Below, piece after piece: positions 22,651-33,284 of a stretch of 44,863 bases of DNA (positions within the stretch are counted from its first letter, which is position 1; each line of letters begins with the position of its first letter). This DNA comes from Flavobacteriales bacterium (GTDB taxonomy: Bacteria; Bacteroidota; Bacteroidia; Flavobacteriales; UBA1820): contig JAGAUI010000013.1 in the NCBI GenBank assembly GCA_017620815.1, positions 1 to 44,863 of the forward strand. Direction: 5' to 3'. Under the pieces are notes generated by a model. The model ran no database searches. It had not been told where the DNA came from and worked only from the letters and a program-made list of their open reading frames with translations. A program made the position numbers and the translations under genes.

Positions 22651-23808
22651 TTATGGATATGTGGCACGATACCAATCGGTAGATTTATAGCACTGGTTAC
22701 GTTGAACAGATGTGGGGAAGGGGATATATGTAGATAGTCCACAGAATATGTTTAATGGTATGTCAAACATATATGGAGTATGGGCACTGTATATCACTGT
22801 TTCGCCTAGGGCATTGGAAAATTCACTGTATTCGTTGGAATATGTTATAGGGCTTATAAATGAATCTAGGTCATATATGAAATGGTGGTTATATGCGTCT
22901 AGAGTCTGGGTGATGTTTACATCTAGGATATCTATGTCATTTCTATGAGCGTGTATTATCTTTTTGACAGAAGCACATAAGGCATCTAGTTTGGATGTAC
23001 GCACTACCGATACCGTAGCATATCTATATGATGGTATGGAGTGTTGGTTGTAATAGTTAAAGTATTTTTTGGCTATGGATAGGGATAGGTTCTGTGCGTC
23101 TTGAGATTCAGATGTGAGTTCTAGAGTGATATTGTGATATGGGAATCCATCGGCTATGACCTCACATGGAGATGATATGATATAGTCTGCCTTGTCTTTA
23201 AGGGCATAGACTACCTCTACAGCACCCATGTAGCATGCGTCAAATAGTATAAAGTCAAAAGTCCCCGATGGTATTGCTGTTTTAAGTTCATCTATTTCTA
23301 TTTCATAAGTGGTGTTTCTTACTACTTGATGTCCAAATGTTTTGGTAGGAGGGTATTGGTATAGTCTAGATTTTGCACTCTTGGCAACTAAGGGGAACTC
23401 TTGTGGTATCCAGCCCGTGCCGTGAGACCATAGCACCAGAGAGTAAGTGTTTGCAGGAAAGAGAGTTACTATATCCCGTATGGCAGTGGATAGAGATGAT
23501 GAACTGGAGGATATATGACCTGTGTACTCCTTGATGATACGGGAACCATTCTGGTCTATGTATAGCAGTTGGGGCTCGGCATTGGGAGTGTCTTTATATA
23601 TGAGCAGATGAGTATCTGGGCGGGAAGGTAGTTTTTTATAGGCGTTGATGATGACCTCTGTATTGGATTCGGCATAGGAACTAAGGTCGTTATCTGCTGC
23701 CATGTATATGAGTGTCGTACGTTTGGCAATAGGAGCAGGTCCGTCATCTTTATTACATGATATCAAGAAAAACGAAAGGGCTAGTAATATGTATGTTAAT
23801 CTTCTCAT
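22651..23808 (-). CDS. Clostripain-family (C11) cysteine peptidase lipoprotein
   Basis: A 385-residue lipoprotein (signal, lipobox LISC with C18) of peptidase family C11. The catalytic dyad is visible: H129 in LWSHGTGW and C192 in FDACYMGAVEV. The AADNDLSSYAESN stretch near the N-terminus is also typical of the family. Clostripain-like enzymes usually cleave after Arg or Lys; in Bacteroides relatives fragipain activates a toxin, but no substrate is encoded nearby. It should be anchored in the envelope. It lies 66 bp upstream of trxB, which has its own promoter, and has a promoter at 23840. Confidence 0.88.
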   Translation of the reverse strand: MRRLTYILLALSFFLISCNKDDGPAPIAKRTTLIYMAADNDLSSYAESNTEVIINAYKKLPSRPDTHLLIYKDTPNAEPQLLYIDQNGSRIIKEYTGHISSSSSSLSTAIRDIVTLFPANTYSLVLWSHGTGWIPQEFPLVAKSAKSRLYQYPPTKTFGHQVVRNTTYEIEIDELKTAIPSGTFDFILFDACYMGAVEVVYALKDKADYIISSPCEVIADGFPYHNITLELTSESQDAQNLSLSIAKKYFNYYNQHSIPSYRYATVSVVRTSKLDALCASVKKIIHAHRNDIDILDVNITQTLDAYNHHFIYDLDSFISPITYSNEYSEFSNALGETVIYSAHTPYMFDIPLNIFCGLSTYIPFPTSVQRNQCYKSTDWYRATYP

Positions 23809-25807: not shown

Positions 25808-25821
25808 AATAGTGCATCATC

Positions 25822-25877
25822 TTTTACGATAAAAATTTATTGTTAAACGATAATTTTTTTTTGTTTTACGAGAAAAT
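25822..25877 (+). repeat. Three ACGA direct repeats at 21-bp spacing
   Basis: The core ACGA occurs at 25826-25829, 25847-25850 and 25868-25871, exactly 21 bp apart (two helical turns). Each is preceded by TTTT or TTAA and followed by (T/G)A(A/T)AA-like bases. A fourth, inverted and diverged copy (GTTTCACGGGAC read on the minus strand) lies at 25891-25902. They sit over and just upstream of the promoter of the DUF2975-HTH-CPBP operon and look like operator sites. The binding protein is not known. Confidence 0.65.
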
Positions 25878-25903
25878 GTATATACATTTGTCCCGTGAAA
25901 CAA
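25860..25903 (+). promoter_or_regulatory. Promoter within a 43-bp dyad, DUF2975-HTH-CPBP operon
   Basis: TTTG at 25860-25863, a 19-bp spacer and TACATTTG at 25883-25890 form a consensus Bacteroidetes promoter. The whole unit lies in an imperfect inverted repeat (25861-25903, one bulged G) whose centre, AAATGTATATACATTT at 25874-25889, is a perfect 16-bp palindrome. A protein bound there would cover both promoter boxes, so repression is the simplest reading. The likely first transcribed base is near 25897, about 25 nt before the ATG. Confidence 0.75.
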
Positions 25904-25921
25904 ATATTACTATCATAGGTG

Positions 25922-26638
25922 ATGAAAAAAAGCATAGCCCGTAGGGTAAATATATTGTATTGGCTGCTTATAGCAGTGGTTGCTGTCATATTGGTATGGC
26001 AGTTGAGTAGTTTTTTCACTGGATTTGCACAGGGGATGAGTCTTTCTGACGAATACCTTGAACTGCATAAAGAGGGGCGTACTATGTATGCTGCTCCACT
26101 AGATGTTAAAGATTATTACACTACCGATGGTGCCGATGCATATAAACACGTGATAACCCATACTCCCGATAGCAGTATAACCGTCATGGCTCGTGTGGCA
26201 ACATATGGAGTGAGGGTGGAACATGATGAAAATATATCCAATCCTTATGCTTGGATGAAGAAAGCATCGGTGTTGCTTATGGTGGTGGAAATGGTGATAT
26301 ACGTGTTGGTGCTGGTATTTCTGTTTAAGACATTGCAGGATATAAAACGCAGTATGAAAAACGGCACGGTGTTTTCTCGTCGTGTGGTGCGTTATGCACG
26401 ATGGACAGGGATACTGATGATAGTGTGTGTGGTGGGATTTGATATAGCGATGTGGTTACAAGGTAAATATGTGCTATCACTAGTGGAGATGTGTGATACT
26501 TCTCTTGCTTCCATGTATATGACACCATCACCCATAAACTCTATGGTGAGTATAGTCATAGGGCTTCTGGTGTTGTTTTTTGCCGAAGTACTTGGCATAG
26601 GGTATGATATGAGTGAAGAGCAGAAACTTACTATATAG
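25922..26638 (+). CDS. DUF2975-like membrane protein
   Basis: A 238-residue inner-membrane protein with about four hydrophobic helices: residues near 11-33, a pair in the middle (about 117-138 and 160-178) and one near 203-225. A hydrophilic loop lies between the first two. It resembles DUF2975, a family very often paired with a YozG-type HTH regulator, exactly as here (HTH gene 20 bp downstream). The start is the ATG at 25922; an in-frame GTG directly before it would add only one residue. The function of DUF2975 is unknown. Expression is probably controlled by the repeats and dyad upstream. Confidence 0.75.
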   Translation: MKKSIARRVNILYWLLIAVVAVILVWQLSSFFTGFAQGMSLSDEYLELHKEGRTMYAAPLDVKDYYTTDGADAYKHVITHTPDSSITVMARVATYGVRVEHDENISNPYAWMKKASVLLMVVEMVIYVLVLVFLFKTLQDIKRSMKNGTVFSRRVVRYARWTGILMIVCVVGFDIAMWLQGKYVLSLVEMCDTSLASMYMTPSPINSMVSIVIGLLVLFFAEVLGIGYDMSEEQKLTI

Positions 26639-26658: not shown

Positions 26659-26907
26659 ATGCCTATAAGAGTAAACATAGATATAATGATGGCTCGCCGT
26701 AAAATTACACTGGGCGAACTGGCAGAAAGGATAGACATCACTCCTGCCAATCTCTCTATTCTTAAAACAGGTAAGGCTCGGGCGGTACGTTTCTCTACTC
26801 TGTGTGCTATATGCAGGGAACTTGATTGTCAAGTGGGAGATATACTGGAATATGTAGAGGGAGAAGAAGACGATAAAGAAGAAAAAGAAAGTAATAACGA
26901 TAAATAA
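26659..26907 (+). CDS. YozG-type small HTH regulator
   Basis: An 82-residue Cro/C1-type DNA-binding protein. Residues 1-65 form the helix-turn-helix domain (ITLGELAERIDITPANLSIL carries the two central helices, and LCAICRELDCQVGDIL the last). The rest is a strongly acidic tail (EGEEDDKEEKE). YozG-like regulators are usually encoded next to DUF2975 membrane proteins. It is the natural candidate to bind the repeats and dyad at 25822-25903, making the operon self-regulated; this is inference. The next gene follows after 11 bp. Confidence 0.88.
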   Translation: MPIRVNIDIMMARRKITLGELAERIDITPANLSILKTGKARAVRFSTLCAICRELDCQVGDILEYVEGEEDDKEEKESNNDK

Positions 26908-26918
26908 TATAAACCGAA

Positions 26919-27848
26919 ATGTTTTTAAGTAAATCATTCGTAGGACGTAATCGTTGGTATTTATATCTAGCGGTGCTAGTGGTGGTGTTTATAGCCACAC
27001 AGATAGGAGCTATACCATTTACAGTGTATCAGATTTTCACTAGTGGAACACTAGAGACAGGTGTGGTAGATGAGGCTGCTATCGCTACTCCGCATGATAG
27101 TGTAGGACTGGCACTTATGTTACTCTCGTTTGCGGTGGGGCTGGGAGTGCTGTTCCTTCTAGCAAGATGGTGGCAGAAAAAACGCCCGACCGATATAACC
27201 ACTGGACGTAGCCGTTTTGACTGGAAGCGTATGGCGTTTGGTGCGGCAGTGTGGGGACTACTTACGCTCTCTATCACTATGGCACAAGTGAGTGGGGACA
27301 GTGACGTGGTGCTTAATTTTGATGCGTCCAAATTTTTCCCTCTGCTAGTGGTGGGAGTGATAATGTTTCCATTGCAGACAGCCATGGAGGAGGTTCTATT
27401 CCGTGGATACCTTATGCAGGGGGCAACTACTCTCTTCCGTAGTGGTGTGGTGGCTCTTATAGCGACTTCTCTATTATTTGGGCTCATGCATGCCGCCAAT
27501 CCCGAAGTAGATACCTATGGGTTCTGGGTGGCAATGCCTCAATATGTTATCATGGGACTTATAATGGGATATGTAACCATAAAGGACGATGGTATAGAAT
27601 TGGCTCTAGGTATGCACTTTGCCAATAACTTACTAGCTTCGCTTCTAGTTACATCTGAAGGAATGGTGTTCCAGACAGCAGCTATATTCCGCGACACAAC
27701 ACCAGATGTAACACATGCCGATACAGCTATCCTTCTAGCTGGAGGTCTTGTGTTTATGTGGATATGTAAGAGAATGTATGGATTTACAGGTACTTTTTCA
27801 TATAACCGTGAAAAAGCAATTCAAATAGAGGAAAGTAGAAAAATATAG
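26919..27848 (+). CDS. CPBP-family intramembrane protease
   Basis: A 309-residue multi-pass membrane protein of the CPBP (Abi/CAAX protease and bacteriocin-processing) family. The catalytic motifs are intact: EEVLFRG (E157, E158, R162), FGLMH (H191) and HFANN (H233, N236). About six to eight hydrophobic helices are visible. Members process prenylated proteins, bacteriocins or membrane regulators. Here it closes the operon with DUF2975 and the HTH protein, so a role in releasing or degrading a membrane partner is possible, though not shown. No prenylation or bacteriocin gene is nearby. Confidence 0.9.
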   Translation: MFLSKSFVGRNRWYLYLAVLVVVFIATQIGAIPFTVYQIFTSGTLETGVVDEAAIATPHDSVGLALMLLSFAVGLGVLFLLARWWQKKRPTDITTGRSRFDWKRMAFGAAVWGLLTLSITMAQVSGDSDVVLNFDASKFFPLLVVGVIMFPLQTAMEEVLFRGYLMQGATTLFRSGVVALIATSLLFGLMHAANPEVDTYGFWVAMPQYVIMGLIMGYVTIKDDGIELALGMHFANNLLASLLVTSEGMVFQTAAIFRDTTPDVTHADTAILLAGGLVFMWICKRMYGFTGTFSYNREKAIQIEESRKI

Positions 27849-27927: not shown

Positions 27928-30741
27928 ATGACAAAATTGAGAAAAACATTACTCGTAGCTGTATCTATGCTCTTTGGTACTATGTGGTGCTATGCACAAG
28001 AGAGCTTCAGCTACAATCCCGATGCTCCGCTACCTGTAAGCAAGGACATCAAGGTGGGTAAACTCAAAAACGGACTTACTTACTACATACGTCATAATGC
28101 TCTCCCTGAAAACAAGGTAGAGTTGCGTCTAGTGGTAAACGCAGGTTCGGTGCTGGAGAACGATGACCAGAGAGGTCTAGCCCACTTTACAGAACATATG
28201 GCATTTAATGGTACTCGCGATTTCCCAGGCAATGCTATCATAGACCGTCTAGAAGAGATAGGTGTACGTTTTGGTGCAGACCTTAATGCCTATACTTCGT
28301 TTGATGAGACTGTTTATATGCTTCCCGTCCCCAAAGAACACCTAGACCTAGGACTTTCTGTGCTGGTTAACTGGGCTTTCTACCTCAATATGACAGACGA
28401 AGACATAGACGGCGAACGCGGTGTGATACTAGAAGAACTACGTCTAGGACGTGGTGCTAGTGAACGTCTTTCAGAAAAATACTTCCCTGTGCTGCTATCG
28501 GGTAGTAAGTATCCAGAACGTATGCCTATAGGTAAAGAAGAGGTAATCAAGAATTTCCCTTATGAAACCATTCGCAGTTTCTATGATAATTGGTATCGTC
28601 CAAATAACATAGCCGTGGTAGTAGTAGGAGATATGAATCCAGACGAGGTCGAAGCCAAAATCAAGGCTTTGTTTGGCAAGGAAAAGAATCCACGCAAGGC
28701 TCCAGAACGTAAAGAGGAAGTTATCCCTCCATTTAAGGGAGCAAAAGCTATCGTGGTTACAGACCGCGAAATGCCTACTACACAGTTGCAGGTGATATTC
28801 CGTGTGGGAGAAAAAGAAAACAAGACACAGGGCGACTATATAGAAGATATAGAAGCTGGTCTATATGGAGAGATGTTGAGTGCCCGCCTAATGGAGATAA
28901 CTCGTAAACCGGGAGCTCCGTTCATCTATGCTGGTGCTGGATACAGCACACTATTGCGTCGTACCAAAGCATTTAATACTGTTGCGGTGTGTGCTCCCGG
29001 AGGTGCACAGGCAGCATTTAAATGTCTTCAGACAGAGGCTCAGCGTGCCAAACTTTACGGCTTCACACAGGGAGAGCTAGACCGTGCCAAAGCTGCTGTA
29101 TTGAGCCGTTTTGAACAGAGCTATTCAAACCGTGAAAAAATGCTTTCTGCACAGCACGTTGGAGAACTACAACGTCATTTCCTAGTAGGAGAGTCTATTC
29201 CGGGTATAGAGTTTGAATATGCACTAGTAAAAGAGGTTCTACCATCTATCACTCTGGAAAAAGTAAATACTTATGGAGATAAACTCATCACAGAAGATAA
29301 CCGTGTGGTGATGGTTATGGGCCCAGAAGGATTGCCATATCCTAGTGAAAAAGAGCTTCTAGATATATTTGCAGCAGTAGATAATGACAAATCCATCAAA
29401 CCTTATGAAGACAAGATGGCTGTAAAACAGCTTATGGATAAAACTCCTGTTGCAGGTAAAGTGGTTGCAGAAAAAACACACGATAAGTCTGGTGTGGTAG
29501 AATGGACTCTATCAAACGGAGCCAAAGTATATCTTAAACCTACTACATTTAAGGATGATGAAATCCTAATGGCTGCAACTAGTAAGGGTGGACGTAGTCT
29601 TTATGAGGCAGCAGATGACCGCAACATCCGTTTTGCGACACAGATACTATCACAGAGTGGTATAAACGGTATTTCTGCTACAGACCTTTCCAAATTCCTT
29701 ACAGGTAAAAATGTACGCATATCTCCTGCTATCAATGCCTACACAGAAACATTAAATGGACAGTATGTGAAAAAAGATGCCAAGACAGCATTTGAACTTA
29801 TGTACTTGCATTTCACAGCTCCATATTTCTCACAGGAGGCATTTGAACTATTTGTGAAGAATGGTAAGGCTCGTGCGGCTTTGCTTATGGAAGACCCAGA
29901 AGCTTATTTCTCATATAAGACTACAGAATTCCTTTCAAACGGCAATCCACGTGCTCTCAATACTCCGCTACCAGCAGACTATGACGGTATAGACCTCTCT
30001 CGTGTAGAGGAAATCTACCGCGAACGTTTTGCAGGAGCCGATGACTTTAACTTCTATTTTGTAGGTAGCTTTACTCTAGATGAGATACGTCCATATATAG
30101 AGACATACATCGCTTCGCTCCCTGCCAAAGGTGTTAAAGAGGCATACAAAGACATCACTTCCAAATATCCTGCTGGAAAGACAGAAAAAGTATTTAACAA
30201 GGGTGTAGATGCCAAAGCCAATGTGAGATTTGTATTCAATAGAGATGATGTGAAATATGACCGCAAGACTGCATTTGATTTTACTATATTCTCATCTATA
30301 CTATCTACACGTCTTCTTAAATCATTGCGAGAGGAGATGGGAGGAACATATTCTGTGGGAGCTCGTGGTACTGCATATTGGCAGCCAAAAGACGAAGCAG
30401 AATTCATAATTGCTTTCTCTTCAAATGTAGAAAAATATAAAGAACTATATGAACGTGCTATAAGTGACCTTAAAGAGCTATATACCAATGGCCCTACAGC
30501 TGAAGAAGTAGCAGCCAAAAAAGAACAAAATGCTCTGCAATGGGTAGAACAGACCAAAACCAATAGATACTGGCTATCTATCCTTTCTGGTGCTGTAAGT
30601 CAAGGACTCTCTCCCGATGAAGCACTTAAAACCAAAGACTATATAGATGCTCTTAACATAGATGATGTAAAAGCTGCTGGACAGAAATATCTTAAACCAG
30701 AAGAGTGGATACGTATTATATGCCTACCAGAGGAAAAATAA
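27928..30741 (+). CDS. Exported M16-family zinc metallopeptidase
   Basis: A 937-residue exported peptidase (signal MTKLRKTLLVAVSMLFGTMW, cut after CYAQ) with two M16 halves. The first has the inverted zinc motif HFTEH (H86, E89, H90) and the distal ligand region GVILEELR (E169/E170). The second half (from about 500) lacks an HxxEH, as in PqqL/pitrilysin-type clamshell enzymes, where it helps bind peptide. It ends with SILSGAVSQG and YLKPEEWIRIICLPEE, typical of the family. Location is probably periplasmic. It is monocistronic and ends before the 28-bp palindrome. Confidence 0.92.
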   Translation: MTKLRKTLLVAVSMLFGTMWCYAQESFSYNPDAPLPVSKDIKVGKLKNGLTYYIRHNALPENKVELRLVVNAGSVLENDDQRGLAHFTEHMAFNGTRDFPGNAIIDRLEEIGVRFGADLNAYTSFDETVYMLPVPKEHLDLGLSVLVNWAFYLNMTDEDIDGERGVILEELRLGRGASERLSEKYFPVLLSGSKYPERMPIGKEEVIKNFPYETIRSFYDNWYRPNNIAVVVVGDMNPDEVEAKIKALFGKEKNPRKAPERKEEVIPPFKGAKAIVVTDREMPTTQLQVIFRVGEKENKTQGDYIEDIEAGLYGEMLSARLMEITRKPGAPFIYAGAGYSTLLRRTKAFNTVAVCAPGGAQAAFKCLQTEAQRAKLYGFTQGELDRAKAAVLSRFEQSYSNREKMLSAQHVGELQRHFLVGESIPGIEFEYALVKEVLPSITLEKVNTYGDKLITEDNRVVMVMGPEGLPYPSEKELLDIFAAVDNDKSIKPYEDKMAVKQLMDKTPVAGKVVAEKTHDKSGVVEWTLSNGAKVYLKPTTFKDDEILMAATSKGGRSLYEAADDRNIRFATQILSQSGINGISATDLSKFLTGKNVRISPAINAYTETLNGQYVKKDAKTAFELMYLHFTAPYFSQEAFELFVKNGKARAALLMEDPEAYFSYKTTEFLSNGNPRALNTPLPADYDGIDLSRVEEIYRERFAGADDFNFYFVGSFTLDEIRPYIETYIASLPAKGVKEAYKDITSKYPAGKTEKVFNKGVDAKANVRFVFNRDDVKYDRKTAFDFTIFSSILSTRLLKSLREEMGGTYSVGARGTAYWQPKDEAEFIIAFSSNVEKYKELYERAISDLKELYTNGPTAEEVAAKKEQNALQWVEQTKTNRYWLSILSGAVSQGLSPDEALKTKDYIDALNIDDVKAAGQKYLKPEEWIRIICLPEEK

Positions 30742-30819: not shown

Positions 30820-31722
30820 TTAATATATCCACATATCCATTTCAAATGCGCGTATCATTTCCTTGATGCGGTCGGCTTCGCGTAATTGGAATAGAGCATT
30901 GGCTCGTAGGTAGTCCTCTATGGCACGGTCGGCATACATATTTTCTTGTTTATATATAACGGCAGAAAAGCGTCGTGCTGTGAGGATATCATCATAGGAT
31001 ATGTTTTGGGCGGTATTCTGTGGATTGAAAGCGGGATAGCTGTCTAGTTCTTTGCGGGCATCGGGATACCATATCCAGAAAAGAGCAACCATATCATCAT
31101 CTCCTGCTTTTACTCCGCTGGCATCGCGGCTGTATGGGGCTATGGCTAGCAAACGGTAACGCAATTCGCTGTGTCGCTTATCAAAATACCACATCCCCTT
31201 GATACGATACTGGGTAACCATGTCTGGGGTAACGCTGTATGTTATGGTATCGGCGGCTGTAAGAGTTTCGCCTTCGGCTAGTTTGTCCATCGCATACTGG
31301 TCTATGCCTTTCATTTCCAACCGAGATGAGACTTCTTGTGGGGTGAGAGGATTTTTAAAGTATTCGTCATCATAGACGTGAGTTATGCGACCCTCCATTA
31401 TAGCGTCCTTAAGCACTGCAAACATGCTCTTGCGTATGGGTAACATCTTTTCATCGGTAGGGAAGTATAGTGGTAGGTTTACTTTCTGGTCTAGGTCTAT
31501 CGTTTCATAGACCACCACACTCCACATCACATCTCGAGGGAAGGTGTATGGGTATTTGACAGGGACTATGGAAGTGTCGGTTATAGAGGAAGAGTACTGC
31601 TCGTGGTATTCCTGAGGGGTGGAGGCGTTAAGGATAGAAACGCTGTGGGATTGGCAGTGGAGTATGGTACTGGATAATGCCATACATATAGTGAGTAGGG
31701 TTGTTGTTTTCATCTTTTTCAT
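30820..31722 (-). CDS. porN: T9SS periplasmic ring protein PorN/GldN
   Basis: The PorK-PorN ring of the type IX secretion system lies in the periplasm under the outer membrane. The 300-residue protein has a signal peptide (TTTLLTICMALSSTILHC, cut near QS) and family stretches such as DVMWSVVVYETIDLDQKVNL, YPDARKELDSY and RRFSAVIYKQ. The ATG at 31722 shares its A with the porM TGA (TGATG), so translation is coupled; a GTG one codon earlier is less likely. It is the last gene of the porPKLMN operon. Confidence 0.93.
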   Translation of the reverse strand: MKKMKTTTLLTICMALSSTILHCQSHSVSILNASTPQEYHEQYSSSITDTSIVPVKYPYTFPRDVMWSVVVYETIDLDQKVNLPLYFPTDEKMLPIRKSMFAVLKDAIMEGRITHVYDDEYFKNPLTPQEVSSRLEMKGIDQYAMDKLAEGETLTAADTITYSVTPDMVTQYRIKGMWYFDKRHSELRYRLLAIAPYSRDASGVKAGDDDMVALFWIWYPDARKELDSYPAFNPQNTAQNISYDDILTARRFSAVIYKQENMYADRAIEDYLRANALFQLREADRIKEMIRAFEMDMWIY

Positions 31723-33284
31723 CACATAAGGGTTATCACTATGGGTGTGGGTTCTTTGGAGGGAATTTTACTGGGCTTATCAAACGAATACTTGATATCG
31801 CGAATGACTATCTCACTGCCTGTTGCCGCTCCTATTATGGCATTGGCTGCCTGTGACGAGAACCTATCTCCTACTACTTGGTATGATGGGCGACCGGGTA
31901 TTTTTACTGTAAAACCTGTAACAGTGAGTGGTATGTCAAACTCAAAGTCTGGATAGCTCACTTCTACACGATTCTGTACTAGAGTGTTTTTATTTATGCG
32001 TAGATTACTCTGCCCGCGTATCTGTCCTACGGGAGCAGGGACACTCTTTATACGGAACTCTTGGGCGGGGAAAGTGTGGATAGTCCCATCACTCATACGT
32101 GCCGATGGAGTGTAACGAGCCGTGCGACCTTGCACAGAAGAAGGGTCTATGATGTATTTCCCTGCTCCCAATAATCGTACTCCGGGGCCCGATAGAGAAA
32201 CGGCATCTGCTGCAACACCGGGGATGGAGATACTCACAGGATTTTCTATCCCACGGTATAGAACGTTCATGCGGGTGGGAGATATTACTGCCATAGGAGC
32301 AGTAACGTCATACTCCCCTTCAAATGGGAAATCTTTAATCTCTCCCTCATCTGTACGTATGCGTATGTATCCACTCCATTTCTTCTCTCCTGTGGAAGAA
32401 GTAGGAATAGAGATGATGCCTCTCCCATCCTCTACTGGCATTTTCTGTCCGTTACTTAAAAAGACTTCGGGGGATTGAGTATCGTCATAAGCAGCCAGTA
32501 TTACTTGAGCACGGAATGCACTACCAGCCATTACGGTGGTGGATTGTGGGAGAACCATAGCTGTGAGGGTATTTGGAACTAGGAGGGCTCCTTCGGTAGT
32601 GGCAGAAATCATCTGTGTGAGGAGTTCTTCCTGTGTGGAACGTATGCGAGACTGGTATTGTGATATAAATGCCAATGCAGCCGCTAGAGGGTAGGCAGAA
32701 AATCTATCTTTAATCCATTCAACGCTTACATCTCCTCGTTTTACTGGCGAAGTAGAAAAATCTACTGCTATCATAGAGAGCAGATGTGTGTCACTGGTCA
32801 TGGAGGATGCTAGAGTACGGAATGAATCCATAAGTTGTGTAAATTCTGCACCCTTACCTTCTCTTAAATCACCGCCTGGGAAAAAGAATTCTCCTGCTAT
32901 GGCAGTAGAGGAAAGGTCGTCTATGTTTTCTATTTGGGAGGGAATGACATCGCTACCTTTCGATATGACACGAGCCATACGCAACATCTCTATTTTATAG
33001 CCTTGTAGAGCATTGAAAAAACTATCGGCAGCATTGCGTAGGGCGGTGGCTTTTTCCAGAGTAGAGGAGTATTTTACAGGGTTATTACGAGCCTTGGTAG
33101 AGATATCGGCATAGAGGGACAGGTTTTTACTCTCTATCTGTGAGGTAGTGGTGGACATAGTACGTTCAAAACTCCAGAAGGCACCTAGTACGTCTATCGA
33201 CACATTGAGTGCCAGCAGAGCCATAAGCACTAGATACATCATATTTATCATCTTCTGCCTAGGAGAATTTGCCGAAAGAGCCAT
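31722..33284 (-). CDS. porM: T9SS motor/periplasmic shaft protein PorM/GldM
   Basis: PorM is the inner-membrane protein whose N-terminal helix sits with PorL in the motor and whose periplasmic domains reach the PorK/PorN ring. The 520 residues fit: SPRQKMINMMYLVLMALLAL near the N-terminus is the conserved helix region (residues 7-35 approximately), with GAF at its end. A long helical region (to about 220) and beta domains follow, ending in PTPIVITLM. The arrangement and length match P. gingivalis PorM. It lies 56 bp after porL and overlaps porN by one base. Confidence 0.96.
   Translation of the reverse strand: MALSANSPRQKMINMMYLVLMALLALNVSIDVLGAFWSFERTMSTTTSQIESKNLSLYADISTKARNNPVKYSSTLEKATALRNAADSFFNALQGYKIEMLRMARVISKGSDVIPSQIENIDDLSSTAIAGEFFFPGGDLREGKGAEFTQLMDSFRTLASSMTSDTHLLSMIAVDFSTSPVKRGDVSVEWIKDRFSAYPLAAALAFISQYQSRIRSTQEELLTQMISATTEGALLVPNTLTAMVLPQSTTVMAGSAFRAQVILAAYDDTQSPEVFLSNGQKMPVEDGRGIISIPTSSTGEKKWSGYIRIRTDEGEIKDFPFEGEYDVTAPMAVISPTRMNVLYRGIENPVSISIPGVAADAVSLSGPGVRLLGAGKYIIDPSSVQGRTARYTPSARMSDGTIHTFPAQEFRIKSVPAPVGQIRGQSNLRINKNTLVQNRVEVSYPDFEFDIPLTVTGFTVKIPGRPSYQVVGDRFSSQAANAIIGAATGSEIVIRDIKYSFDKPSKIPSKEPTPIVITLM

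Follow-up and report, generated by a model that had tools for sequence, protein, structure and literature searches.

Tandem palindromes in 21-bp phase over the promoter of a DUF2975-HTH operon are the probable operator of its own HTH regulator

Among the described systems closest to the locus analyzed here is VanUG of Enterococcus faecalis, the autorepressor of the vanG regulatory operon, which represses its own promoter, binds in two steps in gel shift assays and gives a footprint from -70 to -20 that spans a pair of imperfect palindromes lying side by side and overlapping the -35 element (PMC4405338). A gene pair encoding a YoaS-like membrane protein and an Xre regulator was entered in Table 2 of Makarova et al. 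2009 as a conserved neighbourhood with 32 occurrences and was set aside as not being a toxin-antitoxin system (PMC2701414). The text of 5.4 million open-access papers yielded only two mentions of DUF2975, both incidental, and open-access text gave no instance of the letters of the motif described below; the operator of the DUF2975-HTH module appears to be undescribed. Autoregulated operons that couple a DNA-binding protein to a membrane protein thought to hold or release it are known from the LytTR systems HdrRM and BrsRM. Both DUF2975 and the HTH protein paired with it are widespread and uncharacterised, and an operator would tell what the HTH protein binds.

The window analyzed here is the whole stretch of Flavobacteriales DNA presented above, 44,863 nucleotides in length. 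The operon of interest begins with a gene for a YoaS-like DUF2975 membrane protein of 238 aa (25922-26638, + strand; Pfam PF11188, E 3.8e-15) that ends in the C-tail SEEQKLTI. Directly 3' on the same strand, in an order kept in most of the 80 loci sampled below, lies the gene for an 82-aa YozG/VanU-like regulator of the HTH_26 (Cro/CI-type) family (26659-26907, + strand; PF13443, E 4.4e-21), the proposed autorepressor. The third gene encodes a CPBP (Rce1-like) intramembrane protease (26919-27848, + strand; PF02517, E 6.4e-19). These Pfam matches confirm the gene content that an earlier reading of this DNA from its letters alone (the sequence-only reading) had assigned to the operon. An M16 zinc peptidase gene follows (27928-30741, + strand; PF05193/PF00675). 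Further downstream are the genes for GldN and GldM, components of the gliding/type IX secretion machinery (30820-33284, - strand), and a clostripain-family (C11) peptidase gene is located at 22651-23808 (- strand). The HTH_26 domain scored 75.3 bits against a Pfam cut-off of 22, and the NCBIfam VanU model matched the same protein with an E of 2.5e-7 and 30.8 bits against a cut-off of 150. Only one solved structure, 3tyr/3tys, is related to it in sequence. The AlphaFold model of the DUF2975 protein (pLDDT 82) is built from four long helices, helices 1 and 2 being separated by a small beta region, and a fold search of the PDB with this model returned nothing significant (best E 0.52).

Upstream of the operon, ACGA cores at 25826-25829, 25847-25850 and 25868-25871 are spaced by exactly 21 bp. 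This is the only equally spaced triple (15-45 bp spacing) among the 109 ACGAs of the window, and Markov-shuffled windows contained a mean of 0.01 such triples, so the regular array noticed in the sequence-only reading is real. Its description as simple ACGA iterons was replaced after comparison with three genomes of the same genus (G001, G002 and G003, with G002 the nearest relative). The conserved block in G003 is the palindrome TTTATCGAAAAACGATAAA, and in G002 the copy over the -33 element, 21 bp after the palindrome, is TATTTGTTTTTCGAGAA. The repeated unit is a 17-bp palindrome, TTATyG-WWWWW-CrATAA, present in three tandem copies at 25816-25874, and the ACGA cores are the right halves of these copies. 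The middle copy, candidate operator box 1 (25837-25853, + strand; TTATTGTTAAACGATAA), is a near-perfect palindrome with 0 mismatches to this consensus and is the strongest of the three at 22.4 bits by position weight matrix; an exact pattern search found no other 0-mismatch copy in the genome of the window. Candidate box 2 (25858-25874, + strand; TTTTTGTTTTACGAGAA; 8.7 bits) lies exactly 21 bp 3' of box 1. Candidate box 0 (25816-25832, + strand; ATCATCTTTTACGATAA; -0.2 bits), 21 bp 5' of box 1, has an intact right half-site, CGATAA, and a degenerate left half. Its right half is CAATAA in G002 and G003 and is not kept in G001, and since CAATAA is a valid CrATAA half-site box 0 is preserved in two of the three relatives.

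The promoter described in the sequence-only reading was also recovered. TTTG at 25860-25863 (+ strand), overlapped by box 2, and TACATTTG at 25883-25890 (+ strand; TAnnTTTG), separated by 19 bp, fit the Bacteroidota promoter consensus as -33 and -7 elements, and transcription would be expected to start about 7 bp 3' of the -7 element. Replication iterons were rejected as an interpretation, as the repeats overlap the promoter of the operon and the five genes scanned around them include no replication initiator.

The sequence-only reading had further placed a 43-bp dyad over this promoter. An inverted repeat does exist there, with 17-nt arms at 25860-25876 and 25888-25904 pairing at 14 of 17 positions, and this complementarity is what would favor a DNA or RNA dyad as the main regulatory element. 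However, when the local 351 bp were shuffled 100 times, 2 shuffles gave pairing as good. The nearest relative, G002, retains the right arm but G001 and G003 do not, and the 69-locus alignment described below contained no counterpart. We therefore rejected the dyad as a functional element and consider it very improbable that it is the main one. RNA structure was likewise ruled out as the basis of boxes 0 and 1, which lie upstream of the -33 element and therefore are not transcribed from this promoter.

Conservation was assessed in 80 loci carrying the HTH gene, taken from GTDB genomes, with 84 upstream regions scored. The weight matrix was seeded with TTATCGAAAAACGATAA and made symmetric, and the threshold was set at the 99th percentile of shuffled regions. 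The palindrome was found above this threshold in 72 of the 84 upstream regions, with a median score of 21.2 bits compared to 7.3 bits for the 99th percentile of the shuffles; no site was found near the HTH locus in 7 of the 84. As the matrix was trained on the same sites that it scores, the independent evidence comes from the offsets of the copies. When 69 non-redundant regions were aligned on their best site, 50 had a further copy at +21 and 34 had one at -21, compared to 0-6 copies at each of the other offsets scanned from -40 to +59. The +21 copy was present in 24 of 35 Bacteroidota regions and 26 of 34 regions from other phyla, and the -21 copy in 10 of 35 and 24 of 34 respectively. The 21-bp phasing is thus conserved upstream of related DUF2975-HTH operons, the comparison by which the proposal of a phased array stood to fall. 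Box 2 covers the -33 TTTG in Bacteroidota and the -35 TTGACA in Bacillota. The palindrome, its phasing, its overlap with the promoter and its linkage to the HTH gene hold across phyla.

The overlap of box 2 with the -33 element and the AT-richness of the region could also be accounted for if the repeats were simply UP-element-like promoter context together with the -33 and -7 boxes, with no repressor involved. We regard this as highly unlikely. T, T and G at offsets 24-26, corresponding to the -33 element, are present in 84-96% of the 69 loci, but the most conserved columns are the symmetric G at offset 5 and C at offset 11, at 100%. Boxes 0 and 1 are not promoter elements, and neither the -21 copy nor the right half of box 2, with its C at offset 32 in 74%, belongs to the promoter consensus. 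In addition, the site persists in plasmids of 66-74% GC. The palindrome was detected on annotated plasmids of Streptomyces, Klebsiella, Priestia, Bacillus, Paraclostridium, Parabacteroides and Gemmatirosa, and a second copy at 21 bp was recognisable in 4 of the 8 plasmids; the Gemmatirosa plasmid has one at 22 bp. Of the high-GC Streptomyces plasmids, one (L124) keeps CTATCGATTTTCGATAG and a copy 21 bp away and another (L129) has a single CTATCGAGATTCGATAG; an AT-rich motif in high-GC DNA cannot be background.

The arrangement of the boxes varied among loci. Some had one clear box only, and in some the second box was at 22, 31 or 58 bp. Of a further 26 loci from the order of the window, 24 carried the palindrome, in most cases as a single strong box covering the -33 element, with a weak copy at -21 as well in some. 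Among the Flavobacteriales loci L118, G162, G200, G187 and G115, two perfect palindromes are separated by 31 bp (about three helical turns) in some and by 58 bp in others. On a Klebsiella grimontii plasmid (L125) the module copy has a GC content of 34%, and matches to the HTH protein occur on 64 Klebsiella plasmids, suggesting transfer from a low-GC source. On a Paraclostridium bifermentans plasmid (L128), the HTH gene is preceded by a tandem pair of DUF2975 genes together with a DUF3955 gene, and the operator precedes the whole set.

The specificity of the palindrome was measured by scanning 246 genomes of the order of the window for the exact pattern TTATYGWWWWWCRATAA, using the reversed pattern as a control. 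The pattern was present in 60 of 71 genomes bearing the HTH gene compared to 25 of 175 others (Fisher p 8e-26, a statistic that ignores phylogeny), and the reversed pattern showed no such link (11/71 and 25/175). Forty-two of the 75 listed sites were no more than 3 kb from the HTH gene, nearly all of them 0.5-1.1 kb upstream and 5' of DUF2975. Genomes lacking the HTH gene contained 34 sites in 175, close to the control rate of 40 in 246. As sites away from the HTH operon occur at the control rate, a wider regulon was rejected, and the regulator looks to be a local one.

These counts bear on the proposal that a different, global regulator owns the palindromes and controls the DUF2975 operons incidentally. 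Binding of the palindrome by the HTH protein is a prediction, and 11 of the 71 HTH-bearing genomes lack the exact palindrome, both of which leave some room for such a regulator. The control-level frequency of sites off the operon speaks against it, as does conservation in phyla without an obvious shared regulator. The HTH gene also keeps the site where its operon has no intact DUF2975: five loci with DUF2975 missing or disrupted still carry it 5' of the HTH gene or of the operon that contains this gene. In one of these (L043) the HTH gene adjoins the sites, which lie 61 and 82 bp upstream and thus 21 bp apart; the operator is also retained in a locus with a CPBP gene (L033), in two with an SPFH/Band 7 operon (L060 and L079) and in one with a DUF2975 remnant (L086). 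We consider a global regulator improbable. Variation between C and T at the fifth base of each operator arm is most strongly associated with HTH residues 29 (P/L) and 30 (A/S), which adjoin the invariant T28, N31, L32 and S33 where the recognition helix is expected to begin, although this covariation may be partly attributable to phylogeny because the TT class is mostly Flavobacteriales.

Our preferred reading, to which we assign a probability of roughly 0.8, is that the HTH regulator encoded in the operon has its operator at 25816-25874 and that the operon is negatively autoregulated by this dedicated, local repressor. A dimer of the HTH protein most likely recognises the 17-bp palindrome TTATyG-N5-CrATAA, and two to three such dimers would line up along one face of the DNA in 21-bp steps, equal to two helical turns. 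Box 1 would act as the anchor, occupancy of box 2 would cover the -33 element and block RNA polymerase, and box 0 would serve as an extra weak site. Phased binding and self-repression by this protein had been suggested in the sequence-only reading. Conservation of the palindrome, of the 21-bp phase and of the -33/-35 overlap across phyla argues strongly for both, and cooperativity is a prediction, as binding and repression are.

The position of box 1 just 5' of the -33 element is one that activators usually occupy, and the HTH protein could instead activate the operon from box 1 or box 0. Box 2 covers the -33 element itself, which argues against activation from box 1; a second copy lies over the -33/-35 element in most loci, Flavobacteriales have a single strong box at -33, and VanUG is a repressor (PMC4405338). 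We judge activation unlikely, if a little less so than control by a global regulator.

Under negative autoregulation by the HTH protein, the DUF2975 protein would probably act through its C-tail, EE[NQ]xLTI, to relieve or modulate repression according to a membrane-level signal, a role to which we give about even odds. This tail, a feature defined in this analysis rather than taken from a published definition, is near-universal, including in loci not selected for it, and outside the nearest relative DUF2975 proteins are only 10-32% identical to that of the window. T at position -2 of the tail was present in 55 of 58 aligned proteins, a proportion biased upward because these loci were tail-selected. 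The tail is a candidate docking peptide for the repressor. A membrane partner that could tune self-repression had been proposed in the sequence-only reading, and the near-universal tail lends that idea indirect support. The more specific idea of a membrane-to-DNA switch, in which the tail is the docking signal and is presented to the HTH repressor to free it from the 21-bp-phased operator, is offered tentatively and is the less likely of the two. In two of the DUF2975-less operons (L079:516-1121 and L060:469-1071) the first gene product is an unrelated membrane protein with no Pfam hit, encoded beside the SPFH/Band 7 protein, and the tails of these proteins, EETNSYTI (L079) and EGLNSYII (L060), resemble the DUF2975 tail EENDYTI.

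A tuning role for the CPBP protease, also proposed in the sequence-only reading, did not hold up in general: 3' of the HTH gene, loci of this genus alone carried its EExxxR motif, and CPBP was rejected as a general regulator. The HxxEH motif of M16 peptidases occurs 3' of the HTH gene in 22 loci, with the M16 gene close behind in about 20 Bacteroidota loci. As this family trails the HTH gene in many Bacteroidota loci, M16 possibly belongs to the controlled unit, and the protease may be the real cargo of the operon in those loci.

A helically phased operator kept across phyla would mean that the main target of the module is its own expression. With this promoter driving a reporter, the signal to which the membrane protein responds could be assayed directly, and the palindrome provides a motif for spotting such operons in unannotated genomes. 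The YoaS-like/Xre pair of Makarova et al. 2009 is a gene pair of the kind found in the window, and its description there, as far as it concerns this pair, includes no operator, phasing or mechanism. HdrRM and BrsRM are alike in pairing a DNA-binding protein with a membrane protein in an autoregulated operon, but their protein families are unrelated to DUF2975 and HTH_26, and membrane control of the window operon is a proposal. VanUG and the window protein are both small Cro/CI-type HTH proteins, as the match to the VanU model at E 2.5e-7 indicates. VanUG binds tandem palindromes over the -35 element of its own operon as boxes 1 and 2 are placed here, with box 2 over the -33 element, a likeness drawn from the footprint description and not from the operator letters. 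However, VanUG is paired with VanRS and has no DUF2975 partner, and the window protein scores far below the VanU cut-off, so that it resembles VanU in its proposed working and is no VanU. Tandem-operator autorepression is an ordinary type of mechanism, and the 21-bp phasing is unusually strict.
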